Source of the DNA: a virus
Strand: one strand, 5' to 3'
Length of the DNA stretch: 24,632 bases
IMG/VR virus record: IMGVR_UViG_3300022074_000359
Location: 1 to 24,632 of that record
The first letter of the stretch is position 1; every line of letters starts with the position of its first letter. The notes below the pieces were generated by a model. That model was given only the letters and a program-made list of their open reading frames with translations, searched no databases and was not told the DNA's origin. The translations under genes were made by a program, and so were the position numbers. Below, piece by piece: positions 1 through 24,632 of the stretch.

Positions 1-13
1 AAGGAATGTAGAA

Positions 14-625
14 ATGGCTTTAGGTTTGACAACAGAAAGTAAACCCGCAGGAGATATCCTGCCAATCGTGAAATATTCTGCGCAGTCTGGTGACTTTGTC
101 AGGGTCGACCGCTTCCAAACGAGCGACGGCACTTGGGACAAGTCAGAGGCCGAGCTGGAGTTCCCGGTAAAGATCGCAATGGACTTGGAGAACATCGAGG
201 TCGGGTGGATATCATTCGCCAGTGGCGCTCCAGATTTTGTTATGACCAAGCTGGGCGAGGCAATGCCGACACGCCCCAGTCAGGAACACAGTCAGGGTTT
301 CCGGGTGCGCATTGGCTCCAAGGACTTGGGCCTGCGTGAGTTCTCACACTCAGCCAAGACTGTCACCAAAGTGATGGACGCGCTGCACACGCAGTATGAG
401 GCCGAGGCCAAGGCCAATGCAGGCAAGATGCCAATCATTGAAATCACCGGCACCGAGCGCGTGACCGTGGCAACGCCAAAAGGCGAGAACGTTTTCAAGG
501 CGCCAAAGTGGTCAATCACAGGGTGGGTCGACCGGCCTGAGATGTTTGACGCTACGCAGGAAGAGGCAACCCCTCCCGAAGCCGAAGCTGCGCCAGCAAC
601 GGATGACGATCCGCTGTTTGATTAA
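14..625 (+). CDS. Candidate phage ssDNA-binding protein, acidic C-terminal tail
   Basis: This 203-aa protein probably coats single-stranded DNA at the replication fork. The assignment rests on context and tail rather than on a recognised fold. The body (about residues 1-175) looks globular and is rich in beta-type sequence. Residues about 180-203 are an acidic, Ala/Pro-rich disordered tail ending DDDPLFD. Such tails end bacterial SSB (DDDIPF) and T7 gp2.5, where the tip binds replication partners and competes with DNA. Here an extra Asp follows the Phe, which is atypical. The start is ATG 14, with AAGGA at 1-5 as ribosome binding site. The gene lies just before the primase-helicase and is separated from it by a strong terminator, so it may be transcribed in excess of the helicase. 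Alternatives are another early DNA-metabolism protein or a nuclease inhibitor. Confidence 0.55.
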   Translation: MALGLTTESKPAGDILPIVKYSAQSGDFVRVDRFQTSDGTWDKSEAELEFPVKIAMDLENIEVGWISFASGAPDFVMTKLGEAMPTRPSQEHSQGFRVRIGSKDLGLREFSHSAKTVTKVMDALHTQYEAEAKANAGKMPIIEITGTERVTVATPKGENVFKAPKWSITGWVDRPEMFDATQEEATPPEAEAAPATDDDPLFD

Positions 626-632
626 GCGTCAG

Positions 633-671
633 TGGGGTGCGGTTATCTCCTTTACCGCACCCCATTTTTTT
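633..671 (+). terminator. Strong intrinsic terminator between SSB-like gene and primase
   Basis: A perfect 11-bp stem TGGGGTGCGGT (633-643) pairs with ACCGCACCCCA (654-664) around a 10-nt loop and is followed by seven T (665-671). It sits 8 bases after the stop codon. The last stem base plus the loop, TTATCTCC (643-650), is perfectly complementary to GGAGATAA (674-681), the ribosome binding site of the next gene. Readthrough RNA could therefore hide that site. Confidence 0.9.
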
Positions 672-684
672 CGGGAGATAAACA

Positions 685-2502
685 ATGACAAATAATATCG
701 CGGCACACATTGAGACGGTCGCAAAACATTATTGGGGTGAGCCAAAGGAACGGCGCGGCCACACGCTGCGCTGGGGCAATCGCGGCTCAAAGGAAGTCGA
801 CTTGCGCAAGGGCACTTGGTTCGACTTTGAAGACAATGTCGGTGGCGGGGTCGTTGACCTTGTGCGCCAGAACGAGGGCGCCCAGCTCGGCAGCATACCT
901 GACGTGCTGGAGCGCAAGTTCGGCATACCAAAGCAGACACAGAAATCTATCAGCCCGGCTCAGTTCTTGAGCAAGTGCTACAACTATGTCGATGCGCAGG
1001 GCGAGCTACGCTATCAGGTGCTGCGCTACGAGCCCAAGACATTCAGGCAACGCAGACCCGACAGCAATGGCGACTGGATTTACAACATGAAGGGCGTCGA
1101 GGCGTTGCCGTACAACTTGCACGGCATCCTGTCGCGCCCGGACAAAACTATTTTCGTGGTTGAGGGTGAGAAATGCGCAGACAAACTCATCGAACTGGGC
1201 GCAGTCGCCACTACGTCACACGGCGGTGCAGGAAAGTGGAAGGCAGAACTCAACAAGTTCTTCGGCGGGCGGCGCGTTGTCATTTTGCCCGACGCCGATG
1301 ACGCGGGGCAGATGCACGCCGACGTGGTGACAAGTCATCTGGTCGACGTGGCCGGTGAGGTCAAGCGCATCGATTTGCCGGGGCTATCCGACAAGCAGGA
1401 CGTGTACGACTGGTTCAGCAATGGCAACACGGTCGATGACCTACGCCAGCTCGTGTCAGGCACTGAAGCCGTCACAGAGGCCAGCGAGGTGACAACCGAG
1501 GTGGCCGAGACGGACACGCCGGACGTGTTCCCGACCTATAATCTGTCCTACCTTCGCAACATGCCGCCACCCAAGTGGCTTGTCGATGGCCTGCTGACCG
1601 AGTTCGGGTTCGGCGTCATTTATGGCGAGCCCGGAGTTGGCAAAAGTTTTCTGTCGCTGGACATAGCCCTGTCCGTTGCGTATGGCCGGGCGTGGCACGG
1701 GGCTCCCGTGCAGCAGGGCGCGGTGCTGTACATTGCCGGTGAAGGCGTGGGCGGCCTCGGCAAGCGTGTCAAAGCGTGGCAACAGCATGTGGGCATCGAG
1801 GCAGACGCGCCGATGTTTGTGTTGCCAATCGCTGTGCATATGACGGAGACTGAAGAGGTCGAGAAGCTGTTGCGCACCATTGACAGCCTGCAACAGGACT
1901 TCAGCCTGTGCATCATCGACACGGTGGCGCGCAGCCTGCTGGGGGACGAGAACTCCAGCTCTGATATGTCGGCCTTCGTGACCGCTTGCAACGCCGTACA
2001 GCGCCATATCGACGGCGCGGTGATAGGTGTGCATCACGCCGGAAAAGACGCCACAAGGGGCATGAGAGGCAGTACGGCGCTTCTGGGCGCTGTTGACGCT
2101 GCCCTGCGGGTCAAGAAGGAAGACGACGGCCTGTTGTTGCAATGTGAAAAGCAGAAGGACGCAGAGCCGTTTGAAGACATGCAGTTTGATATGCTGCCCA
2201 TTGCGATGCTGGGCGACAGCTCCCTCATCATCCAACGCACCGAGGTCGAGCGGCAGGACAAGCGCCGGGCCAAGCTGACCACAGACCAGCAGATTGCTCT
2301 GGACAGTCTGCACGACGTGCTTGCGAAAGAGGGCTCCGACAGGTGCAAATTGGACATCTGGAAGGCCGACCATCGTGTGAAAACTCCTGATTTGACGGCG
2401 GGTAAGCGCAGGGATGCGCGGGCTGCATTGCAGTCAAAACGTGTGATTTTCATCGACGAGGGAATGGTCATATTAAACAGAGGGTTAGGTCAAAATGTGT
2501 GA
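685..2502 (+). CDS. Primase-helicase (Toprim + RepA-like AAA ATPase)
   Basis: This 605-aa replication protein joins a primase-like half to a hexameric-helicase-like ATPase. Residues 1-65 resemble a primase N-terminal module (WFDFED...GGGVVDLV) but carry no zinc-binding cysteines. A Toprim domain spans about 150-240, with the acidic residues of VEGEK (159-163) and PDADDAG (202-208). The RepA/AAA_25-like ATPase spans about 285-490, with Walker A GEPGVGKS (314-321), Walker B LCIIDT (408-413) and a sensor-like HH pair (450-451). The last 75 residues look like a winged helix and may bind DNA or a loader. The start is ATG 685, with GGGAG at 673-677. It probably unwinds DNA and lays primers for a polymerase encoded outside the window. 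Whether primer synthesis is retained without a zinc finger cannot be told from sequence. Confidence 0.88.
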   Translation: MTNNIAAHIETVAKHYWGEPKERRGHTLRWGNRGSKEVDLRKGTWFDFEDNVGGGVVDLVRQNEGAQLGSIPDVLERKFGIPKQTQKSISPAQFLSKCYNYVDAQGELRYQVLRYEPKTFRQRRPDSNGDWIYNMKGVEALPYNLHGILSRPDKTIFVVEGEKCADKLIELGAVATTSHGGAGKWKAELNKFFGGRRVVILPDADDAGQMHADVVTSHLVDVAGEVKRIDLPGLSDKQDVYDWFSNGNTVDDLRQLVSGTEAVTEASEVTTEVAETDTPDVFPTYNLSYLRNMPPPKWLVDGLLTEFGFGVIYGEPGVGKSFLSLDIALSVAYGRAWHGAPVQQGAVLYIAGEGVGGLGKRVKAWQQHVGIEADAPMFVLPIAVHMTETEEVEKLLRTIDSLQQDFSLCIIDTVARSLLGDENSSSDMSAFVTACNAVQRHIDGAVIGVHHAGKDATRGMRGSTALLGAVDAALRVKKEDDGLLLQCEKQKDAEPFEDMQFDMLPIAMLGDSSLIIQRTEVERQDKRRAKLTTDQQIALDSLHDVLAKEGSDRCKLDIWKADHRVKTPDLTAGKRRDARAALQSKRVIFIDEGMVILNRGLGQNV

Positions 2503-2605: not shown

Positions 2606-2615
2606 GGGGTAAGTG

Positions 2616-3182
2616 ATGCGTAAGCCAAACAGAGGGATTGAGAAGCAGATGGCACCGATGGGGTCGGTGAACCACCGCAAAGTGCAGTCGGCGTTGATCG
2701 AGTTTGATAGGGCTGTGACGGACATCGAAGACCGGTGGGGCGTTGACCGCTTGCCGGAGCTGGTAGACCACAATCTGCGGGAGAAGTTCTACAAACAGCG
2801 TGAGCGTCTTGATGCGGCGATACAGTCCGATGTCGGGACTGAGGTGCAGCGTGAGGCAGAGGTGATGCTGAAGGGCTACAAGCACCTGATCAAGGCGGCA
2901 GAGGTAAACGGGTTTGCAGAGCTGACCGGCGAGGTGTGGGAAGCCCAGATGCCAGACGGACGTGTGCTGGCTGTAGCCAAGACCATTGACGAGGCTAACA
3001 AGGCTGCCCGCGACAATCGGGATATGGTTGTGTATTCGATGGATGAGATGGCCCGCGTGCTGTGCGGGTGGGAAGAGTTTAAGCTGGCGACAATGGCAAA
3101 GCATACGTTCCCCGGTGCCGAGGTTGTTGAGATACGCGAGCGCAACACAGAGGAGCTGAAAGATGACGAACTCCCTTTCTGA
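2616..3182 (+). CDS. Unknown 188-aa protein with SSB-like DDELPF tip
   Basis: I do not recognise the family. The protein is soluble and charged, with a basic N-terminus and a long helical segment around residues 15-95 (FDRAVTDIEDRWGVD...EVMLKGYKHLIKAAE). A second domain of about 90 residues follows. It ends in TEELKDDELPF, nearly the same as the SSB C-terminal tip DDDIPF that recruits replication partners. The start is taken as ATG 2616 because AGGGG at 2605-2609 is well spaced from it; a GTG at 2613 would add one residue. The last 20 bases overlap the start of the winged-helix gene, so the two are probably translated together. Its place among replication genes and its tip suggest a role on DNA or at the replication fork, but this is inference. 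Confidence 0.8.
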   Translation: MRKPNRGIEKQMAPMGSVNHRKVQSALIEFDRAVTDIEDRWGVDRLPELVDHNLREKFYKQRERLDAAIQSDVGTEVQREAEVMLKGYKHLIKAAEVNGFAELTGEVWEAQMPDGRVLAVAKTIDEANKAARDNRDMVVYSMDEMARVLCGWEEFKLATMAKHTFPGAEVVEIRERNTEELKDDELPF

Positions 3183-3810
3183 ATGGAAGCGACCGTACAG
3201 CGTGTGTCCGTTCCGGGCCGCTGCTGACCGCGAGCTGAAAGAGACGGACTTGAGAGTGCTGATGGCACTGTGTGCGTTCACCAATCGTGCCGGTGTGTGC
3301 TGGCCTTCGATGGCAACGCTGATGGAGTTGACCGACCTCAAGTCGCGCACGTCCATCGACAGGTCAATGCGCAAGCTGAAGAAGCTGAAGTATGTCAGGC
3401 AGCTTGAGGCCAAGGACTACCAGAAGACCAAGACCGGCTGGAAGACGAACAGGTATCAGGTGTTGTGGGAAGTGGATATGGCGTTGCCCAGTCTTGAAGA
3501 GGTACACATCGCCAAGCCCTTGCAGCTCGTCAGTGACCAAGACGAGGTGCCTGAAAGTGAAGGGGGTCTGGGGGATGTAGAACCGTGTATGCACACGCAC
3601 GCTGAAGCCCTCGCCCACGGGTTCGTGCGTGCCGTGCAGCAGGCGACCGGCCAAGTGCTGCTGGTCGACAACGTGGTCAATCACGCGCGCCGGGTAGACG
3701 AGAGCGTGACAGTCGAGCAAGTGATGCAGGCCACGCTGACCGTGTGCCGCGCTCGGCTTCAGGCAAGGCAGGGGGTGCCCAGCTTCGCCGACGTTGCAGA
3801 GGTGCTGTGA
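3163..3810 (+). CDS. Winged-helix DNA-binding protein, possible replication initiator
   Basis: This 215-aa protein has a helix-turn-helix module at about residues 20-75: a helical run (LKETDLRVLMALCAF), then CWPSMATLMELT, then a basic recognition-type segment (SRTSIDRSMRKLKKLKYV). This resembles the HTH_36-type winged helix found in plasmid and phage replication proteins and regulators. The wing-like stretch (residues about 80-105) is also basic. The C-terminal half is unassigned. The start is ATG 3163, with GAGGAG upstream inside the preceding gene. The gene is the last before a strong terminator and lies downstream of the TGTGA cluster, which it could bind as initiator or regulator. That link is untested. 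It could equally be a transcription factor for early or late genes. Confidence 0.65.
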   Translation: MTNSLSEWKRPYSVCPFRAAADRELKETDLRVLMALCAFTNRAGVCWPSMATLMELTDLKSRTSIDRSMRKLKKLKYVRQLEAKDYQKTKTGWKTNRYQVLWEVDMALPSLEEVHIAKPLQLVSDQDEVPESEGGLGDVEPCMHTHAEALAHGFVRAVQQATGQVLLVDNVVNHARRVDESVTVEQVMQATLTVCRARLQARQGVPSFADVAEVL

Positions 3811-3947
3811 TGTACAACGAACAGACCGACGTTTGTTGTTGTACGCGCCCAGCCGCGTACACTTTTTTGCGAGGGCGACCCCTTGCCCCCCGCCCCCTGC
3901 GCTATGCGTATAGGGGGTTCACACAAAATTTTTGGAGAAACCGATGA
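3810..3947 (+). CDS. Possible 45-aa coupled small ORF
   Basis: ATG 3810 shares its first base with the TGA stop of the winged-helix gene, an arrangement often used for coupled translation. The frame stays open for 45 codons and overlaps the start of the next gene by 4 bases. The peptide is odd: a CCC triplet near the start, then Arg/Pro-rich and aromatic residues. It spans a strong terminator hairpin and a G/C-rich inverted repeat, which are enough to explain the sequence. A real gene is possible but not favoured. Confidence 0.15.
   Translation: MYNEQTDVCCCTRPAAYTFLRGRPLAPRPLRYAYRGFTQNFWRNR
3840..3868 (+). terminator. Intrinsic terminator after winged-helix gene
   Basis: TGTACGCG (3840-3847) pairs perfectly with CGCGTACA (3854-3861) around a 6-nt loop. 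One C and six T (3863-3868) follow. Upstream, GTACAAC (3812-3818) and GTTGTAC (3837-3843) form a competing inverted repeat that uses part of the same arm, so two folds are mutually exclusive. The hairpin separates the replication genes from the packaging genes. Confidence 0.85.
3893..3925. promoter_or_regulatory. CCCCCT...AGGGGG inverted repeat upstream of packaging genes
   Basis: CCCCCT (3893-3898) and AGGGGG (3912-3917) are inverted around GCGCTATGCGTAT, followed by TTCACACA. The string TATAGGGG-G-TTCAC resembles TATAGGGG-ATCAC at 2569-2581. Both lie 25-45 bases before a gene start and just past a terminator-like hairpin. This could be a shared phage promoter or binding site; no good sigma-70 -35 box was found. 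Two copies are too few to be sure. Confidence 0.3.
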
Positions 3948-4207
3948 AAGCTGATGTAGTGCTGGCCGCCGCAAGCCAGATTATTAAAAAACGCGGCAAG
4001 GATTATGGCTCTGCCTATGAGAACCACGAGCGCATTGCTGTCATTTGGACAGCGATACTCGGCTACGAGGTCACGGCGTCACAGGTGGCGCTATGTATGG
4101 CTGGCGTCAAGATGGCGCGACTGGTACAATCTCCAGACCACGAGGATAGCTGGATTGACCTAGCTGGCTATGCCGCCTTGGGATCGGAGTGTGTAGATGA
4201 CCGATAG
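3944..4207 (+). CDS. DUF6378-like small phage protein
   Basis: This 87-aa protein matches, from memory, the DUF6378 pattern: KRGKDYG.AYENHERIA...W...LG.EV...QVAL.M...K.ARL...PDHEDSWIDLAGYAALG. The function is unknown. The conserved HEDSWIDLAGYAAL segment (about 65-80) recalls the helical core of MazG-type nucleotide hydrolases, but no catalytic assignment is justified. ATG 3944 is preferred over an in-frame TTG at 3932 because GGAG (3934-3937) is properly placed only for the ATG. It is the first gene after the 3840-3868 terminator and overlaps the small terminase gene by 11 bases, so it probably heads the packaging operon. Confidence 0.8.
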   Translation: MKADVVLAAASQIIKKRGKDYGSAYENHERIAVIWTAILGYEVTASQVALCMAGVKMARLVQSPDHEDSWIDLAGYAALGSECVDDR

Positions 4208-4601: not shown

Positions 4602-4839
4602 TTTGAAAGAGCGCAAGGACGAGGAAAGGCCGTATGTGCGCTTTTATCGTGATTTTATTGAGTGTGATTTCTGCGGCCAGCTCACGCGGGGCCGTGTGTA
4701 TGAGGACAGCCAAGAGATTATTTGCGGCTCGTGTCACGCGACGCTGTGGGAGTTTGAGGACGACATAGCGATATCTTTTGAGAGTGACGGCAACTTGCGT
4801 GTCGTTGATATGGAGAATTTACTTGCCGAGGAAGACTAG
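4582..4839 (+). CDS. Small zinc-ribbon-like protein between terminase genes
   Basis: This 85-aa protein has CDFC (28-31) and CGSC (48-51), two CxxC pairs 16 residues apart followed by His52. This is a classic zinc-knuckle spacing. The rest is acidic. It overlaps the small terminase by 20 bases and the favoured start of the large terminase by 17, so the three genes are translated as a unit. The start is ATG 4582, preceded by GAAGG. Some phages need a small zinc-binding HNH protein beside the terminase for end cleavage, but no HNH motif is seen here. A role as packaging cofactor or DNA-binding protein is inference only. Confidence 0.75.
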   Translation: MTAKIIDLKERKDEERPYVRFYRDFIECDFCGQLTRGRVYEDSQEIICGSCHATLWEFEDDIAISFESDGNLRVVDMENLLAEED

Positions 4840-6376
4840 GGCGACGGACAGGTCGCCGCGCCGCAAGAGGCAGCCGGGGGTTGATGCCCTGACGGGGCTC
4901 AATCTGGATTTTTCGCAAAGCCCGACCGTTTGGAAATTTTTGAACGACGAGAGCTTTGTGCGTGGTTTGATGGGGCCGGTTGGCTCCGGCAAGACGTATG
5001 CGTCTTTGGCCGAGGTTATGTTGCGTGCCGTCAAGCAACCGCCATCGCCGGTCGATGGGGTCAGGTATTCGCGCTTTGCTGTTATTCGTAACTCGTATCC
5101 TGAGTTGCGCACGACCACTATCAAGACGTGGCAAGAGATATTCCCTGAGAATGTTTGGGGCGCGATGCGCTGGTCGCCGCCGATCACGCATCATATTAAG
5201 TTGCCGCCGCGTGATGGTGCCGCCGGTTTGGATGTCGAGGTTATATTTTTGGCGTTGGATCAGCCCCGCGACGTGCGCAAGTTGCTGTCGCTGGAACTGA
5301 CCGGCGGGTTTGTTGACGAGGCGCGTGAGCTGCCCAAAGCTGTGGTGGATGGGTTGACATCGCGTGTCGGTCGTTATCCGACCAAGAAGCACGGCGGGTG
5401 CCCGTGGCGTGGTGTGTGGATGTCGACCAACCCGATGGACAGCGACCACTGGTGGCATGAGCTGGCAGAGAAAAACCCTATTCGTGGTAAGTACCCTTGG
5501 AAGTTTTATAAGCAACCGGGCGGCGTGGTCGAGGGCACTAAAGAGCATGAGGATGCGATATATGCGGCGAACAAGTATTGGATGAACAATACCGAGGCCG
5601 AGAACGTGCAGAACTTGCCGCCGGGTTATTATGAGCAGCAGTTGGCCGGAAAGACGCTGGACTGGATACAGTGCTATGCCGGTGCCAACTATGTGTATGT
5701 GCAGGACGGCAAACCTGTGTGGCATGAGTTCTCTGATAGTTTGATGTCGTATGAGGTTGAGATCGAGCCCGACTTGCCTGTGCATATTGGTTTGGACTTT
5801 GGTTTGACCCCTGCGGCTGTGTTTGGTCAGAAGATGCGCAATGGCCGCTGGCACGTTGTGCATGAGCTGGTGGCGTTCTCTATGGGGCTGGAACGGTTTG
5901 CGCATCACTTAATGGCAGACATACAGCAGAAGTTTCCCAAGTCTGAGGTGTTCATCTGGGGCGACCCTGCCGGTGCCAAGCGTGATGAGATTTTTGAGGT
6001 GACTGCGTTTGAGCATTTGCGCACGCTTGGTTTGCGCGCGCAGCCGACGGCGTCGAATGATTTTATGGTTCGGCGCGAGGCTGGTGCTATGCCGATGAAC
6101 AGGTTGATTGATGGCAAGCCGGGCTTGCTTGTGTCGCGTGACTGCGTGCGCACCCGCAAGTCTTTGGCCGGTGGTTATCACTTCAAGCGCGTGGCGGTCG
6201 GTGCCGGGCACGAGAGGTTCAAGGATGCGCCCAATAAGAACGAGCATTCGCACGTCGGTGATGCGTATGGGTATTTGATGTTGGGCGGTGGCGAGCATCG
6301 TATGCTGACACGCAATCCAAATGGCCGGGCGCAGTTCAAGCAGTTGCGTGCTAACACTGAGTTCAGTGTGTTCTAA
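4823..6376 (+). CDS. terL: Terminase large subunit (packaging ATPase/nuclease)
   Basis: This is the motor that cuts concatemeric DNA and pumps it into proheads. Residues here are counted from TTG 4823 (517 aa). Walker A is GPVGSGKT (51-58). Walker B is VDEA (164-167), with the Glu as catalytic base. The RNase H-like nuclease has Asp residues at GLDFG (D325), WGDPAG (D381) and HVGDAYG (D480). The start is uncertain. TTG 4823 has GGAG at 4812-4815 and a 7-base gap, while the longer frame (TTG 4778) lies fully inside the CxxC gene and adds an unconvincing hydrophobic stretch. No ATG lies near the conserved start. The final base is shared with the next ATG (TAATG). Confidence 0.93.
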   Translation: MPRKTRATDRSPRRKRQPGVDALTGLNLDFSQSPTVWKFLNDESFVRGLMGPVGSGKTYASLAEVMLRAVKQPPSPVDGVRYSRFAVIRNSYPELRTTTIKTWQEIFPENVWGAMRWSPPITHHIKLPPRDGAAGLDVEVIFLALDQPRDVRKLLSLELTGGFVDEARELPKAVVDGLTSRVGRYPTKKHGGCPWRGVWMSTNPMDSDHWWHELAEKNPIRGKYPWKFYKQPGGVVEGTKEHEDAIYAANKYWMNNTEAENVQNLPPGYYEQQLAGKTLDWIQCYAGANYVYVQDGKPVWHEFSDSLMSYEVEIEPDLPVHIGLDFGLTPAAVFGQKMRNGRWHVVHELVAFSMGLERFAHHLMADIQQKFPKSEVFIWGDPAGAKRDEIFEVTAFEHLRTLGLRAQPTASNDFMVRREAGAMPMNRLIDGKPGLLVSRDCVRTRKSLAGGYHFKRVAVGAGHERFKDAPNKNEHSHVGDAYGYLMLGGGEHRMLTRNPNGRAQFKQLRANTEFSVF

Positions 6377-7563: not shown

Positions 7564-7566
7564 CTG

Positions 7567-7963: not shown

Positions 7964-8258
7964 CACTCCAGCTTGGCAACGTAAGGCAGGCAAGAACCCC
8001 AAAGGCGGTTTGAACGAAGCGGGCCGCCGGTCTGCTCGTGCGCAGGGCATGAACCTCAAGCGCCCGGTTAGGTCTGGCGACAATCCGCGCCGTGCGTCTT
8101 TTTTGGCTCGGATGGGCAACATGCCGGGGCCGGAGCGCGACAGCAAGGGCAAACCCACGCGCCTGCTTTTGTCTCTCCGCGCTTGGGGCGCGTCGAGCAA
8201 AGCAGACGCCAAACAAAAAGCCGCAGCAATAAGCAAGAGGAACAAAGCCAGTGCATAG
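7956..8258 (+). CDS. DUF6321-like small phage protein
   Basis: This 100-aa basic protein has the string AWQRKAGKNPKGGLNEAGRRSARAQG, followed by RRASFLARMGNMPGPERDSKGKPTRLLLSLRAWG. I recall this as the DUF6321 pattern, found in many marine phages. The function is unknown. It often travels with the DUF5824-like gene just upstream, as here. It overlaps that gene by 8 bases and the portal gene by 8. Strong positive charge suggests nucleic-acid contact, possibly in the capsid, but this is inference. Confidence 0.7.
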   Translation: MGSTPAWQRKAGKNPKGGLNEAGRRSARAQGMNLKRPVRSGDNPRRASFLARMGNMPGPERDSKGKPTRLLLSLRAWGASSKADAKQKAAAISKRNKASA

Positions 8259-9813
8259 CGTTGAAGAAATTATGAAACGTCACGCGGTCGCGCAGCGCCG
8301 CAAAGACAACTGGCGGCAGATTTACGAAGACTGCTACGAGTTCGCCCTGCCGCAGCGCAACCTGTATGACGGTTATTACGAGGGCGGCGGCTCGCCGGGT
8401 CAGAACAAGATGGCTCGCGTTTTTGACAGCACCGCCATCAATGCGACACAGCGGTTTGCCAACCGCCTGCAAGCTGGGCTGTTTCCTGCCTATGCTCAGT
8501 GGTGCCGCTTAGAGCCCGGCCCCGACATCCCAGAGGATCGTCGGCTGGAAGCTCAGATGGCACTGGATATTTATGCAGACAAAATGTTTGCGCTTTTGCG
8601 CCAGACAAACTTTGACCTAGCTATGGGCGAGTTCTTGCTTGACCTTGCAGTGGGCACTGCTGTCATGTTGATACAGCCCGGTGACGACCTCACGCCAATC
8701 CGCTTCACAGCAGTGCCGCAGTATCTGGTCGCCATTGAAGAGGGCGCCTATGGCAAGGTGGACAACATCTATCGCCGTATGCGTATGAAAGGTGAGGCGA
8801 TAGCGCAGCACTGGCCTGACGCTGAGATACCGCCGCGCCTGCAACGCATGATTGATGATAAGCCTACGGAAGAGATAGAGCTAATCGAGGCCACGTTGTA
8901 CATGCCAAACGAAGGCGACTTTTGCTACCACGTCATCTGGCCGGAAGGCAAAGACCAGTTGCTTATGCGCCGCATGAAGTCCAGCCCTTGGGTTGTGGCT
9001 CGATATATGAAGGTCGCTGGCGAAGTATACGGACGCGGGCCATTGGTCACAGCCATACCCGACATCAAGACGCTAAACAAAACACTTGAGCTGCTGCTCA
9101 AGAATGCGTCGCTGTCTATTGCCGGTGTGTACACCGCCGCCGATGATGGCGTGCTGAACCCGCAAACCATACGCATTGCTCCCGGTGCGATTATACCTGT
9201 AGCGCGCAATGGCGGCCCGCAGGGTGAGAGCTTGCGCCAGCTACCACGTTCTGGCGACTTCAATGTCAGCCAGATTGTGATTAACGACCTACGCATGAAC
9301 GTCAAAAAGATTATGCTCGATGACACGCTGCCGCCCGACAATATGTCGGCTCGTTCAGCGACTGAGGTTGCCGAGCGCATGAAAGAGCTGTCGCAAAACT
9401 TGGGCTCTGCTTTTGGGCGCCTAATCAATGAAACGATGATACCGATGATTTCGCGCATCCTGTACGTTATGGACGAGCGAGGACTAATTGAGTTGCCTCT
9501 CCGGGTCAACGGCCTTGAGGTTAAGGTGACGCCAGTGTCTCCGATTGCGCAGGCACAGAATATGGGCGACATCGAGAAGATCATGCAGTGGGTGCAGCTA
9601 TCGTCTGCGCTTGGCCCGCAGGGTCAGATTGCAGTCAAGACAGACAGCATATCAGACTACGTTGCTGACAAACTCGGCGTGCCTGCTGATTTGAGAACCA
9701 CGCCGCAAGAGCGCGAACAAATTTTGGAGCAAGCAGCGCAGGCTGCTGAGATGGCAATGCAGGCAGAGGGCGGCGGCGCGCTCCCCACCGAAGAGCCGCA
9801 AGAGACTTTATAG
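8251..9813 (+). CDS. Portal / head-to-tail connector protein (T7 gp8-like)
   Basis: This 520-aa protein matches the podovirus head-tail connector family (T7 gp8 type), which forms the dodecameric ring at one capsid vertex through which DNA enters and leaves. Characteristic stretches are NWRQIYEDCYEFALPQR (about 20-36), VFDSTAINATQRFANRLQAGLFP (about 56-78) and PPDNMSARSATEVAERMKEL (about 365-385). The length fits the family (about 500-550). The last 40 residues are Ala/Gln/Glu-rich. The start is GTG 8251, with AGAGG about 10 bases upstream; an ATG at 8272 is an alternative. It is the first gene of the head module, and the next gene starts 3 bases after its stop. Confidence 0.92.
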   Translation: MHSVEEIMKRHAVAQRRKDNWRQIYEDCYEFALPQRNLYDGYYEGGGSPGQNKMARVFDSTAINATQRFANRLQAGLFPAYAQWCRLEPGPDIPEDRRLEAQMALDIYADKMFALLRQTNFDLAMGEFLLDLAVGTAVMLIQPGDDLTPIRFTAVPQYLVAIEEGAYGKVDNIYRRMRMKGEAIAQHWPDAEIPPRLQRMIDDKPTEEIELIEATLYMPNEGDFCYHVIWPEGKDQLLMRRMKSSPWVVARYMKVAGEVYGRGPLVTAIPDIKTLNKTLELLLKNASLSIAGVYTAADDGVLNPQTIRIAPGAIIPVARNGGPQGESLRQLPRSGDFNVSQIVINDLRMNVKKIMLDDTLPPDNMSARSATEVAERMKELSQNLGSAFGRLINETMIPMISRILYVMDERGLIELPLRVNGLEVKVTPVSPIAQAQNMGDIEKIMQWVQLSSALGPQGQIAVKTDSISDYVADKLGVPADLRTTPQEREQILEQAAQAAEMAMQAEGGGALPTEEPQETL

Positions 9814-9816
9814 ACA

Positions 9817-10886: not shown

Positions 10887-10889
10887 ACT

Positions 10890-11059: not shown

Positions 11060-11893
11060 ATGGCTCTAGGCATTACTAACGCTTTCGTTCAGTTGTTCGA
11101 TGCAGAGGTTCATCAGGCATATCAAGGCGCACGCGCCCTTGCCGGTGTAACTCGTGAGCGAACAAATGTCGAAGGCAATCAGGTGAAGTTCCCTAAAATT
11201 GGTAAGGGAACTGCCACTGTTCGCGTTCCGCAAGCAGATGTAACTCCGCTGAACGTGACCTACTCTCAAGTCACCGCCACTATGTCGGACTTCATTGCTG
11301 CGGAATATTCCGATATTTTCCAACAGCAGAAAGTCAACTTTGACGAGCGCCGTGAGCTTGTTCAGGTTGTCGGTAACGCTATTGGTCGTCGTATGGATCA
11401 GCTCGTCATTGACGCTCTGAATGCTGCATCCAGCCCGTCGACTGTTGCAACCACCGTTGGTGGATCAGGCACAAACCTGAACCTCGCCAAACTGTTGGCG
11501 GCCAAAAAAGCATTGGACACGAAAAACGTACCGGCAGAAGGCCGCTGCGCTATCATCCACGCAAACGGCTTGTCAGCTCTGTTGGACGAAACCGAATTGA
11601 CTAGCGCAGACTTTGCCACCGTTAAGGCTCTGTCGACTGGTGAGATTGACACCTTCCTTGGTTTCAAATTCATCACGATCGGCGACCGCGACGAGGGTGG
11701 TCTTCCGCTTCCGTCAACTCGGACTAACTTCTTTTTCCACCGCGACTCAGTAGGTCTGGGCATTGGCATGAACCAACGCTCCGAGATCAACTACGTCCCA
11801 GAGAAGACTTCGTTCCTCGTCTCTTCAATGTTCTCGGCTGGCGCCGTTGCCATTGACGACGAAGGTATCGTAAAAGTCTCGTCAACCGAGTAA
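11060..11893 (+). CDS. Major capsid protein
   Basis: This 277-aa protein forms the icosahedral shell. It sits after portal and scaffold and before the tail tubular genes. Its sequence has the expected HK97-fold character: an N-terminal arm (ITNAFVQLFDAEVHQAYQGARALAG), an extended strand region (KFPKIGKGTATVRVPQADVTP), a long spine-like helix (FDERRELVQVVGNAIGRRMDQLVIDALNAA, about 93-123) and later strand-rich sequence ending VAIDDEGIVKVSS. It is shorter than T7 gp10A (345 aa). ATG 11060 has AAGGA about 8 bases upstream. It probably has its own promoter behind the 10890-10925 terminator, as suits the most abundant protein. No frameshifted longer form is evident. Confidence 0.9.
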   Translation: MALGITNAFVQLFDAEVHQAYQGARALAGVTRERTNVEGNQVKFPKIGKGTATVRVPQADVTPLNVTYSQVTATMSDFIAAEYSDIFQQQKVNFDERRELVQVVGNAIGRRMDQLVIDALNAASSPSTVATTVGGSGTNLNLAKLLAAKKALDTKNVPAEGRCAIIHANGLSALLDETELTSADFATVKALSTGEIDTFLGFKFITIGDRDEGGLPLPSTRTNFFFHRDSVGLGIGMNQRSEINYVPEKTSFLVSSMFSAGAVAIDDEGIVKVSSTE

Positions 11894-11904
11894 GGAGAAA
11901 TATT

Positions 11905-12189: not shown

Positions 12190-12196
12190 ATCCGGC

Positions 12197-12232: not shown

Positions 12233-12241
12233 GAGGCGTAG

Positions 12242-12856
12242 ATGGCTGCTGGCGATACCAAACTATCAATCTGTTCTGACGCACTAATCATGCTGGGCGC
12301 GACACCGTTGTCCAGTTTTTCTGATGGCACAGATGAAGCTCAAGTCGCAGACCGCCTCTATGACGATGTGCAAGACACATTGCTCATGCAATACGCATAC
12401 TCTTGGTCGGTTAAAAAAGTGAAGCTGTCGCGCCTTGCTGACGCCCCGATCAATGAATGGAAATACAAGTACCAGCTCCCCGGCGACATGCTGGGCAACC
12501 CAAAGGCTGTGTTTAGCACCAGCTCTGTGGGCGGCCAGCCGGTGCGTGATTTCGAGATTTATTCAGACGGGCTGTTTACCAATCTGGAAGAAGTCTGGAT
12601 TGATTACCAATTCAAACCAGAGCCGTCTGTGTTCCCGCCATATTTTGTGCGCCTGCTTCGCACCTCTCTGGCCGCTGAGTTTGCGGAGCCGATTACCGAC
12701 CAAATTACCAAGGCGCAATATTACCATCAGCAAGCCTATGGCGCGCCATCGGAAAACATGCGAGGCGGTCTGGTTCGTGTTGCAATCAATATTGACGGAG
12801 CTGATAGACCGGCACAGGTCATACAGGAGTTCCCGATCTCGGACATCCGTGGATGA
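12242..12856 (+). CDS. Tail tubular protein A (T7 gp11-like adaptor)
   Basis: This 204-aa protein matches the gatekeeper/adaptor family that forms a ring between portal and tail nozzle. Typical features are the N-terminal LSICSDALIMLGATPLSSF (about 7-25), the helical AQVADRLYDDVQDTLLMQYAYSW (about 33-55), then LPGDMLGNPKAVF and a C-terminal helix (PYFVRLLRTSLAAEFAEPIT). The length is near that of T7 gp11 (196). ATG 12242 has GGAGG at 12232-12236. The stop overlaps the next start as ATGA, coupling it with the nozzle protein it contacts. Confidence 0.88.
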   Translation: MAAGDTKLSICSDALIMLGATPLSSFSDGTDEAQVADRLYDDVQDTLLMQYAYSWSVKKVKLSRLADAPINEWKYKYQLPGDMLGNPKAVFSTSSVGGQPVRDFEIYSDGLFTNLEEVWIDYQFKPEPSVFPPYFVRLLRTSLAAEFAEPITDQITKAQYYHQQAYGAPSENMRGGLVRVAINIDGADRPAQVIQEFPISDIRG

Positions 12857-14874
12857 GCCGGGTCATCCAAATACAGAATGACTTTACGGCTGGGGAGCTA
12901 GACCCCAAGCTGCGCGCCCGCACGGACTTGCAGCAATACAGCTCTGGCCTCACAACCGCAAGAAACGTCACAATCCAACCACAGGGCGGCGCCAAGCGTC
13001 GACCCGGCACCAAGTTCATACACCAGCTTGACAGCGGTGCAGCAAACGCGGTGCGTATGGTGCCCTTTGAGTTTAGCGTCGATGACAGTTATATGCTGGT
13101 GTTTACGCCGGGCAAAATGTACGTCTACAAGGATGGCGCACTAATTACTAACATCAATGGCACTGGCAACAACTTTCTGACCGTGTCGGCTCTTACCGCC
13201 TCTATCCTGCCAGACATGAACTGGATACAGTCGGCAGATACGTTGATTGTTGTACACGGCAGTCTGCCCCCCACAAAGATTGTGCGCGGTGCAAACGACA
13301 GCAGTTGGACACTCAGCACAATCAGCTTTGACTTTGCCCCGTACTTTGCTTTTTCAATTAGCACGCAGGCAGGCACATCTCCCTTCAATAGCGTAAGCTA
13401 CGACCACATCGAAGTTAACTCAGCGTCTGGCAACATACGTTTTGCGGCATTCCATAGCGGTTCGGCTAGAAACATTTTTACGTCTAGTGCGGCGACCTAC
13501 GAAAATCAGTACATAAACGTCCAGCCATTTGGTCGTTTGCGTGTTGTGCGCAAGGTGAGTAATAGCGTCTTGGAGTGCTTCGCCGAGGTGCCGTTGTTTG
13601 ACACCACAAACATTACACCGGGAAGCTGGGAGCTGGAGACGGGCTACGAGCTGACTTGGTCGGCAACTCGCGGCTATCCAAGAGCCGTGACATTTCACGA
13701 GGGTCGTTTGTACTTTGGCGGCACGTCAACTCGGCCATCAACCATCTTTGGTTCGCGCGTCGGTAACTTTTTTAACTTCGATCCGGGCGAGGCTTTGGAC
13801 GACGCAGCGGTCGAAGCAACGATGGATACTGGCACATTCAACGCAATCTTGGATATGTACTCTGGCACGCACTTGCAGATATTTACGTCGGGCGGTGAGT
13901 TCTATGTGCCGCAGGGTTTCGACGACCCCATAACGCCAACTAATCTCATTGTGAAGGCGCAGACAAGTTTTGGCACCAAGCCCGGCATCCGTGTGCAAAA
14001 CTTGGACGGTTCAACCCTGTTCATCCAGCGTCAGGGCAAAGCTCTGCAAGAGTTCATCTACAGTGACACGGTGCAGGCATATACGTCTGCCAAGATTAGC
14101 TTGCTGTCGTCTCACTTGCTCAAGTCGCCCATAGAGATGGCTGTGCGCCGGTCGACCAGCACAGACGAAGGCGACCGTCTTCTAATCGTAAACGGCACGG
14201 ATGGCAGCATAGCGTGCTACACAATCCTGCGATCACAACAGGTGATTGCGCCTAGCGAATGGACAACAGACGGGGAGTTCATAAATGTCGGTGTTGATGT
14301 CAATGATATATATGTTGTGGTTAAGCGTACTGTTAACAGCAGTGTCGTTTATTATACTGAGCTATTTGATAGTACAGTTTTGCTGGACAGCGCCAAAACG
14401 GGCAGTGCCGCATCTTCAACGACTATGGGTCATCTGCAAGCCGAGACTATCAAGATTGTTAGAGATGGAATTGTGGAAGCAGACCAAACTGTCCCGGCTT
14501 CGCCGTTTACAATCACATTTGCTGGTGCAGCTACGTCAAGTTTTCAAGTAGGTCTAAACTTCACACCAGAGGTCAAGACCCTGCCGGTCGAGCCGCGCCT
14601 TGCCAGCGGCTCCCTCAAGGGCTTCAAGAAGCGCATCTTTGAGGTGAACGCCGAGCTGTTCGAGACGCAGGCTTTGACTATCAATGGCAAAGAGGTGCCT
14701 TTTAGAAACTTTGGCGCAAGCGTCTTGGATGACGATGTCGACGAGTTCACAGGCATCAAGACATTGCACGGCATTTTGGGTTATACTTTCGATGGACAAA
14801 TCACAATCGGTCAGACAGTGCCACTGAAGATGACGCTGCTTGGCATCGATTACAAAGTAAGCGCGGGGCAATGA
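12853..14874 (+). CDS. Tail tubular protein B (T7 gp12-like nozzle)
   Basis: This 673-aa protein forms the tip of the short tail. The opening is characteristic of the family: IQNDFTAGELDPKLRARTDLQQYSSGLTTARNVTIQPQGGAKRRPGTKF (about 6-55). Beta-propeller-like repeats follow, including YPRAVTFHEGRLYFGGTSTRPSTIFGSRVGNFFNF (about 275-310). It is somewhat shorter than T7 gp12 (794). The start overlaps the adaptor gene by four bases, and the following gene starts two bases after its stop. In related phages six copies contact the fibres and close the channel until infection. Confidence 0.9.
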   Translation: MSRVIQIQNDFTAGELDPKLRARTDLQQYSSGLTTARNVTIQPQGGAKRRPGTKFIHQLDSGAANAVRMVPFEFSVDDSYMLVFTPGKMYVYKDGALITNINGTGNNFLTVSALTASILPDMNWIQSADTLIVVHGSLPPTKIVRGANDSSWTLSTISFDFAPYFAFSISTQAGTSPFNSVSYDHIEVNSASGNIRFAAFHSGSARNIFTSSAATYENQYINVQPFGRLRVVRKVSNSVLECFAEVPLFDTTNITPGSWELETGYELTWSATRGYPRAVTFHEGRLYFGGTSTRPSTIFGSRVGNFFNFDPGEALDDAAVEATMDTGTFNAILDMYSGTHLQIFTSGGEFYVPQGFDDPITPTNLIVKAQTSFGTKPGIRVQNLDGSTLFIQRQGKALQEFIYSDTVQAYTSAKISLLSSHLLKSPIEMAVRRSTSTDEGDRLLIVNGTDGSIACYTILRSQQVIAPSEWTTDGEFINVGVDVNDIYVVVKRTVNSSVVYYTELFDSTVLLDSAKTGSAASSTTMGHLQAETIKIVRDGIVEADQTVPASPFTITFAGAATSSFQVGLNFTPEVKTLPVEPRLASGSLKGFKKRIFEVNAELFETQALTINGKEVPFRNFGASVLDDDVDEFTGIKTLHGILGYTFDGQITIGQTVPLKMTLLGIDYKVSAGQ

Positions 14875-14875
14875 T

Positions 14876-16950: not shown

Positions 16951-19628
16951 CCAGCTTCAAAGAAGAGTTTATGAGATCAAGAGAGCTGGCCGAGGTTGGG
17001 GTCGAGGCAGAGTTGTACCGCAACGACGATGGTATGCTCTTGGTTCGACAGGTGCCGCCGCCACCAGTAACCATAACGCCAGAGGGCGAGATTGATATGG
17101 GCACTGTTGGCGAGGCGCTTGAAGAGCTGCCAGAGGCTTTGGCAGCGGGAGCGTCAGGTTTGGTGCAGGGCGCAACAGCCGCCACAGTTGGCCTGCCCGG
17201 AGACTTGGTTGCCATCGGCAATGCCGCAGTCGACTACTTTAATCAAGGCGACGTTGCACAGGCTCTTACTATATTGAGCGATATGTCTGAACAGTATGGC
17301 TCTGGCCGCGTCAAACAATTCTTTGACGAAAACTTGCCCGAAGTGTTCAGCGACAAAGCAAAGGTTGCTGCCGACGTTAGCAGGACATATGGCGAGTTTG
17401 GCGGCGTTGGTACGGCAGCCGTCGCAGGCGCACGCCAAGTGCCACCAGCTTTGAGAGCGATAGACCGCGCCGGGCAACGGGCGCAAGCGCGGCTTGACGA
17501 GAATGTAGGCACAACCCTTATGTCGGGCATCGACCCCAAGAGGGCGGCAGACGAGCTGACCGCCGGTGCCGGTCAGGTGGCGCGCCTTATGTTGCCAGAC
17601 GTGCAAAAGCAGATGAAGATGGACAAGCGTATGTCGATGCAGCCGCCTGCTGTTCTTGAGGCGCTGACAGATCAGGACAGAGAGCTTATCAAAAAACTTG
17701 GCGGCGAGAAGCGCGCGTCCGAAAGCGTTGAGCCCGGCCTAGATGATATGGACATCATTAACGCCGACGAGTTTATGCGTGCGCGCTCAAAGCAAGAGCC
17801 AACGCCACCACCAGCACGCAAACAAGACGAGCTGGGATTTTACAGCCGCGCCCAAGACTTCATTGACAACATCAAGCAAGAAAAGCTGACGGGGCAACAA
17901 CTCAAAGGGCAGATGCTTAATGCTGGCGTCAAGCCCGACGAGCTGAAGTGGACAGGGTTGGACAAGTTTTTGGAAGAGAACCCCAAGCTAACTAAGCAAG
18001 AGGCTATGGACTTCATCGAAGACAATAAGGTTAGGTTGGAAGAGATTACATATGAAGGCAGCACGCTTGACCCTGATACGCATCAGAGTTTTACTGGGCC
18101 AGAATCTATACGAGATGAAGCCGAAATTATGTTTCATCGTGAAAGAATAGATGAATATGTGGACGAACACTTAGAAGATGTTTTCACATCGCTAGGGGTG
18201 GAGCCAGATGACATTCCTATGCACATAGATGCTTATACAGATTTACAGGACGCCACAGGAGGGCGTGTATTCAACCCAAGTCAAGAGGTTTTGGGGCCAT
18301 TGCAAGCAAGATATCCTGAAGTAGACGTGGAAAATATTGGACGACAAGTTGACGAAAAACTTGATGAACTGGCTGAAGATTTCTACAACGATAACCCATT
18401 CTATCAAGTTGACGGCGAGGGTGCGCTTGAGGACTACCGCATCGTCGGCAATGACGACGTTGGCTACTATGTTACTTATAAAGGCATTTCCACAGGTATG
18501 GATGATGTTTACTCAATTAACGAGGCGCAAGTGCAAGTTCAGACCCACGCTATGGAGCGCGGCCTCGTTAATTTTGGGGGTGAGACACAGTACTCCGAGT
18601 ACACCCAGCCCGGCGCAGAAAATTACCGCGAGGTGTTGCTGACCAACCCCGGCTATAAGGGTGACCCGTCGTTCGAGTTAAACGAGACGCAGCGTGAGCG
18701 CTTGAAGGAGCTGAAGGAAAAAGTAACCGCTGAGATGAAGCGTCGCGCCCAATCTGGAGAAACTCCAATTTACGGGCCTCAAGATGCTCTTAGTGCTAAA
18801 GAGATGACGGACTACGAAGCCCTTCACTTTCAAGACCGGAAAGTCGGTATGCCGTCTCCCTCACCTCACTGGCAAGAGGACGATGTTGTCGCACACGCTC
18901 GTTTGAGTGACCGGGTGGCGCCCGACAGCTTTACCCACAGCTCTGGCTTGCGCGCCGATGGTAAGGTGCTTTACATCGAAGAAATACAAAGCGACTGGGC
19001 GCAGACTGGTCGTCGTCGCGGCTTTGGCGCGCAAGAGGTTGAATTTTCAGAGCCAATTTACAAAGGAAAAGATGACAAGGGCCGAGACACTTGGGTTGTA
19101 AATTCTAAAGATGCAGACGGCCTTGATCGGCCACACAAATTTTTGGGCGGCCCAACGGACTTCCCCACCAAAGAGGCGGCCCTTGAAGCGATTGAACGAG
19201 AGAAAAAAATACGTCCTAAAAGTCTTGGCAGAGTGCAAGAAGGCCCTGTGGTTGGCACGACTGAAAAATTTACAGAGGCAACTATGCGCCGCTTGATACG
19301 CAAAGCAGCCGACGAGGGCTATGACTACATCGCTTGGACGCCGGGCTACGTTCAGGTTGATCGTTGGGGTGAGCAAGGCTTGGAAACTTACTATAATAAG
19401 GTGTTGCCTAAATCGACCAAAAAGGTTGCCCAGAGCTTGGACAAAGAAGCTAAAGTTGAGGTCATTAGCGTAAATATTGAGGGCGAACCACAAGAAACAC
19501 TGGCCTTGCGCATTACAGACAAACTGAAGAAAATGGCAAAAGAAGGGCAGCCATTGTTTGCTGTTCCGGCAGCAGCAGGGACTGGCGCCGCACTAACATC
19601 AAAAGAGGAACGCAATGGCAATCTCTAA
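16947..19628 (+). CDS. Large polyvalent-type ejection protein (893 aa)
   Basis: This long internal protein seems built of modules. Residues about 50-125 contain an apolar Gly/Ala segment (EALAAGASGLVQGATAATVGLPGDLVAIG) followed by VKQFFDENLPEV, a combination I recall from phage core proteins. The middle (about 220-560) is charged, helical and variable. Residues about 620-820 hold a conserved module of large polyvalent phage proteins: HFQDRKVGMPSPSPHW, VLYIEEIQSDW (EEIQSDW 678-684), LIRKAADEGYDYIAWTPG (783-800). Its biochemical role is unknown to me. The C-terminus has the common GQPLFAV ending. No lysozyme or transglycosylase motif was found. By position it would travel into the host with the DNA; the conserved module could act on host targets, but this is inference. 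Confidence 0.7.
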   Translation: MTSFKEEFMRSRELAEVGVEAELYRNDDGMLLVRQVPPPPVTITPEGEIDMGTVGEALEELPEALAAGASGLVQGATAATVGLPGDLVAIGNAAVDYFNQGDVAQALTILSDMSEQYGSGRVKQFFDENLPEVFSDKAKVAADVSRTYGEFGGVGTAAVAGARQVPPALRAIDRAGQRAQARLDENVGTTLMSGIDPKRAADELTAGAGQVARLMLPDVQKQMKMDKRMSMQPPAVLEALTDQDRELIKKLGGEKRASESVEPGLDDMDIINADEFMRARSKQEPTPPPARKQDELGFYSRAQDFIDNIKQEKLTGQQLKGQMLNAGVKPDELKWTGLDKFLEENPKLTKQEAMDFIEDNKVRLEEITYEGSTLDPDTHQSFTGPESIRDEAEIMFHRERIDEYVDEHLEDVFTSLGVEPDDIPMHIDAYTDLQDATGGRVFNPSQEVLGPLQARYPEVDVENIGRQVDEKLDELAEDFYNDNPFYQVDGEGALEDYRIVGNDDVGYYVTYKGISTGMDDVYSINEAQVQVQTHAMERGLVNFGGETQYSEYTQPGAENYREVLLTNPGYKGDPSFELNETQRERLKELKEKVTAEMKRRAQSGETPIYGPQDALSAKEMTDYEALHFQDRKVGMPSPSPHWQEDDVVAHARLSDRVAPDSFTHSSGLRADGKVLYIEEIQSDWAQTGRRRGFGAQEVEFSEPIYKGKDDKGRDTWVVNSKDADGLDRPHKFLGGPTDFPTKEAALEAIEREKKIRPKSLGRVQEGPVVGTTEKFTEATMRRLIRKAADEGYDYIAWTPGYVQVDRWGEQGLETYYNKVLPKSTKKVAQSLDKEAKVEVISVNIEGEPQETLALRITDKLKKMAKEGQPLFAVPAAAGTGAALTSKEERNGNL

Positions 19629-22506: not shown

Positions 22507-22519
22507 ATTACGATATAAT
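22491..22519 (+). promoter_or_regulatory. Possible promoter before the tail fibre gene
   Basis: A perfect TATAAT (22514-22519) lies 17 bp after TTTGCA (22491-22496, four of six matches). RNA would start around 22526, leaving only about 11 nt before the ATG at 22537 and putting the GAGG binding site at the very 5' end. That makes a working promoter doubtful. Confidence 0.25.
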
Positions 22520-22536
22520 CCAACCAGAGGTACGAT

Positions 22537-24632
22537 ATGGCCGACTATAACATTAACGCAGCGACACGACGTGTGGTCTTATCCGGGTCTGCCGGAACGG
22601 GGCCATACTCCTTCACGTTTGCCGTACTGGTGCAAACTGACCTTGCTGTCTACCTCAACTCTACCAAGCTAACGCTGACGACTGACTACACTGTCAGCAT
22701 CGCAACAAACGGCACCGGCACTGTGACGCTAAACACCGGCACGACCAATGTGCCTACGACGCCAGGGTCAAGCGACAGCGTTATTATTGTGGGCGCGCGC
22801 GCACTAGAGCGCACGACAGACTTTGTGACTGCTGGCGACTTGCGCGCCTCGGCGCTGAACGAACAGCTCGACGCAAACGTAATCTTTGACCAGCAGCTTG
22901 CCGAGGAAAACCAGCGCACAGTCAAGGCGCCGGTGTTTGACCCGGCGACGACTGAGGGTGGTGGCTCTGTCGACATGACACTGCCTGCCAAGGACACGCG
23001 CAAAGGCAAGTACCTTGCGTTTAACGCTACGACCGGCAACCCCGAAGCCGGGCCAAGCGTGTCAGATGTCACGACTGTATCGGCTGCCGCCACAGACATT
23101 GCGCTGCTGGCCGACATACAGGACGGCACCACGGCCACCAACGCCATTACGACCGTGGCATCCAACAATGCAAATGTTGCTACGGTCGGAGGTATTTCGG
23201 CTAACGTCACGACGGTTGCAGGCATTTCCAGCAACGTGACAACGGTGGCTGGCAAGGCCAGTTTGATCACCTCAGACTTTGTTGCCGATCTAAATACTTT
23301 AGCTACAGCCGATATTGTTTCAGACTTAGATACAGTATCTACAAATATTAGTGCAGTCCAAGGTGCTTCGGGAAATGCTACTACAGCAACTACAAAAGCA
23401 TCTGAAGCAGCGGCCTCGGCTACAACTGCTACAACAAAAGCAACTGAGGCCGCATCCTCGGCTACTGCGGCGGCTAGTTCTGCAACTGCGGCGGCATCTT
23501 CCGAGACTGCGGCGGCGGCTTCTGCGGCAAGTGCGGCTACAGCTTTGGATAGTTTTGATGATCGTTATCTTGGAGTAAAATCTAGCAATCCAACAGTAGA
23601 CAATGATGGAAACGCCTTAGTTGCAGGTGCATTATATTTTAACGATAGTGCCAATGAGATGCGTGTCTATGATGGTGCAAACTGGATAGCCGCAACCTCG
23701 GCTGGCAATGTCTCTCTTATTCTCTATGAGTACACCGCAACCGCAGGTCAGACTACATTCTCAGGCTCTGATGATAACAGCGCAAGCCTGTCTTACACTG
23801 TAGACAATCTTCAGGTTGTAATGAATGGTGTGGTGCTTGACCCAGCAGACTTTACTGCAACCAATGGCACCAGTGTTGTGCTGGATAGTGGTGCAACTGT
23901 TGGCGACCAGATAAACATCTATGCTTTCAAATCCTTTACTACCGCAGATATGGTTTCCAAAACTGCTGGTGGTACGTTTAGTGGTGCTGTTGGATTTAGT
24001 GGTGGGATCACAGGTGATGTTGCATTTGATACAAACACTCTGAAGGTAGACAGCACGAACAATCGGGTTGGGATTGGGACAACCAGCCCTGACACCATTG
24101 CTGAAATTGTTGGTGCTAATCCTATTGTTACCATTAGAGACACAGAAACATCGTCTGGTTCCGCAGAAGCAACATTGCGACTGGCTGAATCAGGTGCAGG
24201 CGATAGTCTGGGGTCTTACTGGGATATCAAATCAAGCGGTGGGTCGCTTCATTTTATAGACAACTGGGATGAAGGTGGCGGCACTGGCACCAGAGTTACC
24301 CTTACCGATTCGGGCGATATTCAAATCCCAATATCAACAAATGCTATGGGTACGTTTGCCGATAGCATTGGTGAAGTCGGTAGTGGAAACTTTGCACTAC
24401 AAGTAACCAATACCGCACAATCAGCGTTAAAACCTTTTGGTATTCGTGCTGAAGATATTCGGTTTGCTACGGGTTCGTCAGAACGTATGCGTATCGACAG
24501 CACCGGTCAGGTAGGCATCGGCACGAGCAGCCCAAGTGCAGGTTTGCATATTGACAACCCTAGCAATAGTGCAATTACAGCTATTTTAGATACCGACAAT
24601 TCTGCTGTAAAAATGGTTTTTCGTAATAATAC
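22537..24632 (+). CDS. Tail fibre protein, T7 gp17-like N-terminus (3' end missing)
   Basis: One frame stays open from ATG 22537 (AGAGG at 22526-22530) to the window end, giving at least 698 residues without a stop. Residues 1-140 match the tail-attachment domain of T7-type fibres: YSFTFAVLVQTDLAVYLNSTKLTLTTDYTVS and ERTTDFVTAGDLRASALNEQLDANVIFDQQL. Three 10-residue repeats (213-242) are followed by an Ala/Thr/Ser-rich stalk (about 278-336), then LGVKSSNPTVDNDGNALVAGALYFND...VYDGANW (about 343-390). Two VGIGT-SP units (about 510-518 and 657-664) follow, a pattern often found before a self-cleaving C-terminal chaperone, which would lie beyond the window. It binds the host surface. Base composition and codon use change sharply near 23270. 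Confidence 0.9.
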   Translation, partial: MADYNINAATRRVVLSGSAGTGPYSFTFAVLVQTDLAVYLNSTKLTLTTDYTVSIATNGTGTVTLNTGTTNVPTTPGSSDSVIIVGARALERTTDFVTAGDLRASALNEQLDANVIFDQQLAEENQRTVKAPVFDPATTEGGGSVDMTLPAKDTRKGKYLAFNATTGNPEAGPSVSDVTTVSAAATDIALLADIQDGTTATNAITTVASNNANVATVGGISANVTTVAGISSNVTTVAGKASLITSDFVADLNTLATADIVSDLDTVSTNISAVQGASGNATTATTKASEAAASATTATTKATEAASSATAAASSATAAASSETAAAASAASAATALDSFDDRYLGVKSSNPTVDNDGNALVAGALYFNDSANEMRVYDGANWIAATSAGNVSLILYEYTATAGQTTFSGSDDNSASLSYTVDNLQVVMNGVVLDPADFTATNGTSVVLDSGATVGDQINIYAFKSFTTADMVSKTAGGTFSGAVGFSGGITGDVAFDTNTLKVDSTNNRVGIGTTSPDTIAEIVGANPIVTIRDTETSSGSAEATLRLAESGAGDSLGSYWDIKSSGGSLHFIDNWDEGGGTGTRVTLTDSGDIQIPISTNAMGTFADSIGEVGSGNFALQVTNTAQSALKPFGIRAEDIRFATGSSERMRIDSTGQVGIGTSSPSAGLHIDNPSNSAITAILDTDNSAVKMVFRNN
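23173..23262 (+). repeat. Three 30-bp in-frame repeats in tail fibre gene
   Basis: Units 23173-23202, 23203-23232 and 23233-23262 encode NVATVGGISA, NVTTVAGISS and NVTTVAGKAS. A weaker unit (NAITTVASN) precedes them near 23140. Such N-V-T-T-V repeats form slender trimeric stalk segments in phage fibres. The drop in G+C content begins directly after the third unit. Confidence 0.85.

Follow-up and report, generated by a model that had tools for sequence, protein, structure and literature searches.

The window, the whole stretch of 24,632 bases analyzed here, carries genes for a primase-helicase, a replication initiator, the terminase, the portal, the capsid, tail tubular and internal virion proteins, and it ends within an open tail-fibre gene. 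Its main features are as follows.

1..24632, no strand assigned: whole window, a podovirus genome fragment with four GANTC sites
685..2502, plus strand: primase-helicase (PHROG 906/239), the query for relatives covering the early region
3163..3810, plus strand: replication initiation protein (PHROG 270)
4778..6376, plus strand: terminase large subunit (PHROG 2)
8251..9813, plus strand: head-tail connector or portal (PHROG 332, E=1e-86), the basis of the family tree
11060..11893, plus strand: major capsid protein (PHROG 3437)
12853..14874, plus strand: tail tubular protein B (PHROG 376)
22547..24632, plus strand: tail-fibre gene, open at the contig end, with two of the four residual GANTC sites

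Near-complete relatives measure 33-35 kb; one of them (G076), which contains four GANTC sites in total, shows its start a second time near its end, consistent with a circularly closed sequence of about 33.6 kb. The closest isolate is the Methylophilales phage MEP301 (MW452941; 68% in the portal and 52% in tail tubular protein B), and the portal, capsid and tail tubular proteins follow the same order in the window and in MEP301-related podoviruses. A search for the single-subunit phage RNA polymerase (PF00940) returned nothing in the window and eight long relatives, none of which is certified complete, and gave clear matches in the control phages HTVC011P and HTVC019P. This implies that the window and these relatives do not belong to the Autographiviridae lineage, where GANTC depletion has mainly been reported.

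A machine count recovered only four GANTC sites in the window, identical to those listed in the initial annotation.

11744..11748, no strand assigned: GACTC in the major capsid gene
18102..18106, no strand assigned: GAATC in an 893-amino-acid open reading frame (16947-19628)
24187..24191, no strand assigned: GAATC in the tail-fibre gene
24307..24311, no strand assigned: GATTC in the tail-fibre gene

The first two sites are also found in contig L002, which is 99.4% identical to the window. The chance expectation of about 95 sites given in the initial annotation agrees with the 93.8 sites predicted from zero-order composition, while a maximal-order Markov model predicts 46.0 (46-48 across counts). 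When synonymous codons were permuted such that every protein and the codon usage were retained, 56.2 ± 5.9 sites were expected (n=500; z = -8.9), and the smallest count among the 500 shuffles was 40. This confirms that the GANTC shortfall is real and does not follow from the encoded proteins or their codon choice.

Other gapped palindromes were not equally affected, as neither GTNAC (60 sites, O/E 0.82) nor CANTG (143 sites, O/E 1.23) is notably depleted in the window. The view that GATC and other four-base palindromes are not rare had to be corrected, because GATC (34 vs 79 Markov-expected, 0.43) and CATG (36 vs 97 Markov-expected, 0.37) are moderately depleted, as is GGNCC (31 vs 69 expected, 0.45). 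These milder shortfalls are common to relatives that keep GANTC, and values are still low in the sister clade without GANTC depletion (GATC 0.65, CATG 0.59); they therefore look like a separate background. General palindrome avoidance was ruled out by the window counts and by the pooled pattern ranking described below.

We fetched 80 IMG/VR relatives by their portal and built a portal tree. Zero-order GANTC O/E values are mostly 0.00-0.10 in the clade of the window and mostly 0.22-0.63 in one large intermediate subclade, and lie at 0.68-1.01 in a 15-member sister clade that includes MEP301 (108 GANTC sites, O/E 0.86). The depletion classes require 10 changes on this tree, compared with 36.7 when labels are shuffled. 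GANTC depletion is a lineage trait, and because it marks a clade and is lacking in the sister clade that includes the betaproteobacterial phage MEP301, we regard the avoidance as long-standing. In the 45 extreme contigs (601 kb pooled), 70 GANTC sites were counted vs 1,079 expected (0.065) and GANTC ranked lowest of 1,792 two-plus-two patterns, followed by CATG at 0.51; since these contigs were selected for low GANTC, the rank is informative and the pooled value is not. The pooled ratio is 0.49 in the intermediate group and 1.02 in the sister clade. All four N variants of GANTC are low in the pooled clade, and one-base neighbours of the motif are about as frequent there as in the sister clade. 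In the proposal that such strong avoidance reflects long selection, the age of the depletion and its specificity to GANTC are supported. The lineage has a GC content of about 47-57% and is mostly marine or estuarine. Two distantly related contigs binned as Verrucomicrobia TMED56 (L090 and L091; portal 25-26%, 33-34% GC) contain zero GANTC sites in 8.5-8.9 kb and are possibly misbinned phages of an alphaproteobacterium.

That two of the four residual sites lie in the fibre segment had been pointed out in the initial annotation, and this pattern generalizes over the seven contigs with a mapped fibre. With the fibre module taken as at most 6 kb from the start of the fibre, residual GANTC stands at 0.172 of expectation within the module vs 0.033 elsewhere (p = 1.6e-7), so that across relatives the module is about fivefold richer in sites than the rest of the genome. 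This agrees with a recent exchange of fibre segments from less depleted genomes. Within the tail-fibre gene of the window, GC drops to 0.46 over the final 630 bases (24001-24632), compared with 0.51-0.58 before, in line with an exchange of the fibre tip. In the pooled 45 contigs, residual GAWTC is about twice as frequent as GASTC relative to expectation (0.042-0.043 vs 0.015-0.020).

Evidence on hosts comes from a relative (portal 67%) integrated in a Hyphomicrobiales MAG, on a contig of 186 kb (G049:C36, about 63,600-98,000; L136, L137, L084), where its integrase and YqaJ genes lie beside host hflX and mazG; these gene names were read from the translations. Based on this integrated member, the family seems to include temperate phages. 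Another contig of the same MAG encodes a 386-amino-acid CcrM with a RAMA C-terminal domain. The 29 kb of prophage hold seven GANTC sites (0.076) and the flanks 208 (0.448), a sixfold difference in ratio, and none of the sampled 29-kb flank windows had fewer than 21 sites. A similar contrast between prophage and flanks was described for the provirus of Pelagibacter NP1 (Seong et al. 2022, PMC9516812). Other host links obtained by GTDB portal matches were discarded as mostly short or misbinned contigs, exemplified by a close relative of the window that appears as a 34-kb contig in an Opitutae bin; only the Hyphomicrobiales contig represents a convincing integration. The suggested link to CcrM-bearing Alphaproteobacteria is hence supported by a relative, and we infer that the window's own host is likewise an alphaproteobacterium with CcrM.

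Alphaproteobacterial phages often carry GANTC methylases (PMC5537653, PMC7139368), and the specificity of the phiLM21 enzyme (phiLM21_p027) for GANTC has been measured (PMC5537653). We surveyed homologues of enzymes with tested specificity, plus relatives of these; PF01555 matches were rejected as a marker of CcrM-like methylases on account of their too mixed specificity in phages. IMG/VR contigs with relatives of phiLM21_p027 (n=77, at least 8 kb) had a median O/E of 0.39 and a minimum of 0.20, those with relatives of the L031 enzyme (n=47, at least 8 kb) a median of 0.35 and a minimum of 0.15, and those with relatives of the DSS3-P1 enzyme, whose relative PhiOC_p213 was tested (n=14, at least 4 kb), a median of 0.78. 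None of these 138 methylase-bearing viral contigs, for which the GANTC specificity of the individual homologues is assumed, fell below 0.11; two shorter methylase contigs of 5 kb (L463 and L469) are at 0.05.

Within the family, a phiLM21-type methylase occurs in L031, L409 and L411-L414, with GANTC O/E values of 0.18-0.33. In L031 and L409-L414 the gene follows the initiator and lies just upstream of the terminase and a homologue of the open reading frame at 3932-4207. It is absent from this initiator-terminase locus in the window, and no phiLM21-type methylase was detected elsewhere in the window, itself an incomplete genome, nor any GANTC-type methylase in the near-complete extreme relatives. 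The L031/L412/L413 subclade (0.18-0.23) nests inside the extreme clade on the portal tree, and its neighbour L005 (0.00) has no methylase though both methylase loci are covered. Another subclade, L399-L401 (0.20-0.28), adjoins L045, which has a methylase. An early-region methylase was suspected in L399-L401 and none was detected in their 19-22 kb of sequence, so the acquisition of a methylase cannot account for every intermediate value. Contigs with a methylase thus lack extreme depletion, but a genome can be intermediate without one. When methylase presence and depletion were compared over independent pairs in the family, three pairs were obtained, of which one provides a clean, informative contrast, and the association has no phylogenetic significance. 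Four related, strongly GANTC-depleted contigs (L094 of G030, L372, L373 and L374) carry an early-region N6_N4 methylase; the two of these enzymes that were read contain an SPPY motif, which we take to suggest cytosine-N4 activity. In L045 (G023), the phiLM21-type methylase is directly followed by a phosphoadenosine-phosphosulfate-reductase-like gene (21618-22436), by eye reminiscent of DNA sulfur modification genes.

On balance, we consider restriction-like selection against unmethylated GANTC in alphaproteobacterial hosts the probable and best explanation for the window. According to this working model, the podovirus lineage would infect Alphaproteobacteria whose methylase CcrM marks GANTC, and unmethylated GANTC in incoming phage DNA would be costly to the phage in these hosts. 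The simplest such cost would be cutting: some cells may possess a nuclease that cleaves unmethylated GANTC, with CcrM shielding the chromosome. A phage could then escape by losing sites through point mutation, as in the window, or by acquiring its own GANTC methylase, after which sites could build up again. The initial annotation had offered escape from restriction and avoidance of methylation side by side; the former is now favoured, because phages with their own GANTC methylase are not extremely depleted, which would be unexpected if the methylation of phage DNA did the damage, and cutting by a host nuclease is the presumed form of the cost. An earlier proposal for Alphaproteobacteria holds that orphan CcrM-like methylases are the partners of solitary Type II endonucleases (PMC3488263). 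In the neighbourhoods of alphaproteobacterial plasmid CcrM homologues we found no GANTC endonuclease, and these methylases lie in a housekeeping context (rnhB-ccrM) with no adjoining nuclease; cassettes of two methylases and a nuclease near CcrM-like plasmid genes of Firmicutes were set aside as probable GATC-type, DpnII-like systems. Published SAR11 genomes are said to be devoid of R-M systems, yet their phages are GANTC-depleted (PMC9516812). A more far-reaching and rather speculative version would have CcrM double as the protecting half of a distributed, class-wide restriction, with phages either erasing GANTC or carrying a methylase in a mutually exclusive manner. If so, any solitary GANTC nuclease would be a usable defence in Alphaproteobacteria, and the phages of the whole class could be sorted by escape route from sequence alone.

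We weighed this selection for restriction escape against other explanations. Sites might instead have been removed because CcrM methylation, or binding of GcrA, would disturb transcription or replication of the phage, so that the phage stays outside host cell-cycle control. Most Alphaproteobacteria have CcrM, and GcrA binds GANTC in a methylation-dependent manner (PMC3667746); the depletion is strong, genome-wide and found in a lineage linked to CcrM hosts. However, phages bringing GANTC methylation of their own are frequent in these hosts (PMC5537653) and not extremely depleted, and regulatory selection would be expected mainly near promoters, whereas sites are missing throughout coding sequence; we therefore judge this explanation rather unlikely. 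Less likely again is that the phage mirrors the bias of a host whose chromosome is itself GANTC-poor. GANTC is under-represented in Ensifer genomes (PMC8725594), the host flanks of the prophage stand at 0.448, and methylase-bearing phages show host-like medians of 0.35-0.39. Host mimicry can account for the intermediate class but not for the window, as values in the extreme clade are roughly a tenth of the host level (0.03-0.04 vs about 0.45, zero-order), and the contrast between the integrated relative and its own flanks largely refutes it. A GANTC nuclease made by the phage or by a co-infecting element against host or competitor DNA, with the lost sites serving as self-protection, would also yield a strict, lineage-wide loss, but CcrM-methylated host DNA would be safe from an ordinary nuclease of this kind, and we give this scenario little credence. 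Chance, an assembly artefact, or amino-acid and codon usage can practically be dismissed. Protein and codon usage do contribute to the difference between the 94 and the 56 expected sites, but no codon-preserving shuffle went below 40, and 45 contigs from many samples share the deficit.

The prevailing view holds CcrM to be an orphan methylase of the cell cycle that lacks a restriction partner, although separate phage lineages are purged of its target. Because the lineage described here offers close relatives whose depletion ranges from strong through partial to absent, some encoding a GANTC-type methylase and others not, it makes a defence role of CcrM testable; in addition, GANTC depletion may serve as a cheap hint to the host class of uncultured phages. 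GANTC depletion has already been published for half of the pelagiphages, where it clusters on the head-tail connector tree (PMC9516812), and the lineage of the window resembles these phages in its near-absence of GANTC, in its presumed CcrM-type hosts and in this clustering. New here are a second lineage with GANTC depletion beyond the pelagiphages, the contrast with an outgroup that includes a betaproteobacterial phage, the integrated relative beside the DNA of a ccrM-bearing host, and the finding that extreme GANTC depletion and GANTC methylases hardly overlap. Most of the depleted pelagiphages are said to belong to the Autographivirinae, which have a phage RNA polymerase; none was found in the window or its long relatives. 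MEP301 has a gene content similar to that of the window but a betaproteobacterial host and undepleted GANTC. Phages of the phiLM21 type, whose methylase has homologues in the window relatives L031, L409-L414 and L045, represent the alternative answer to GANTC. Loss of one short palindrome, as in the window, is also known from restriction-site avoidance in phages (PMC4687349). The proposal of solitary nucleases with orphan CcrM-like enzymes (PMC3488263) assigns the methylase a protector role.

Strong multi-motif avoidance is present in several marine alphaproteobacterial phages. Our recount gave one GANTC site in HTVC011P and six in HTVC019P (NC_020482, L489, and NC_020483, L490), which also have zero GATC (vs 116 and 132 expected), zero CCNGG and zero GGNCC. 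The joint loss of these motifs with GANTC resembles an evasion of Type II restriction, and it differs from the lineage of the window, in which GANTC alone is extreme. The first 50 kb of HMO-2011 (NC_021864, L218) contain zero GATC (188 expected), zero CCWGG and 30 CCSGG, and roseophage SIO1 (NC_002519, L316) has a single CCNGG vs 113 expected.
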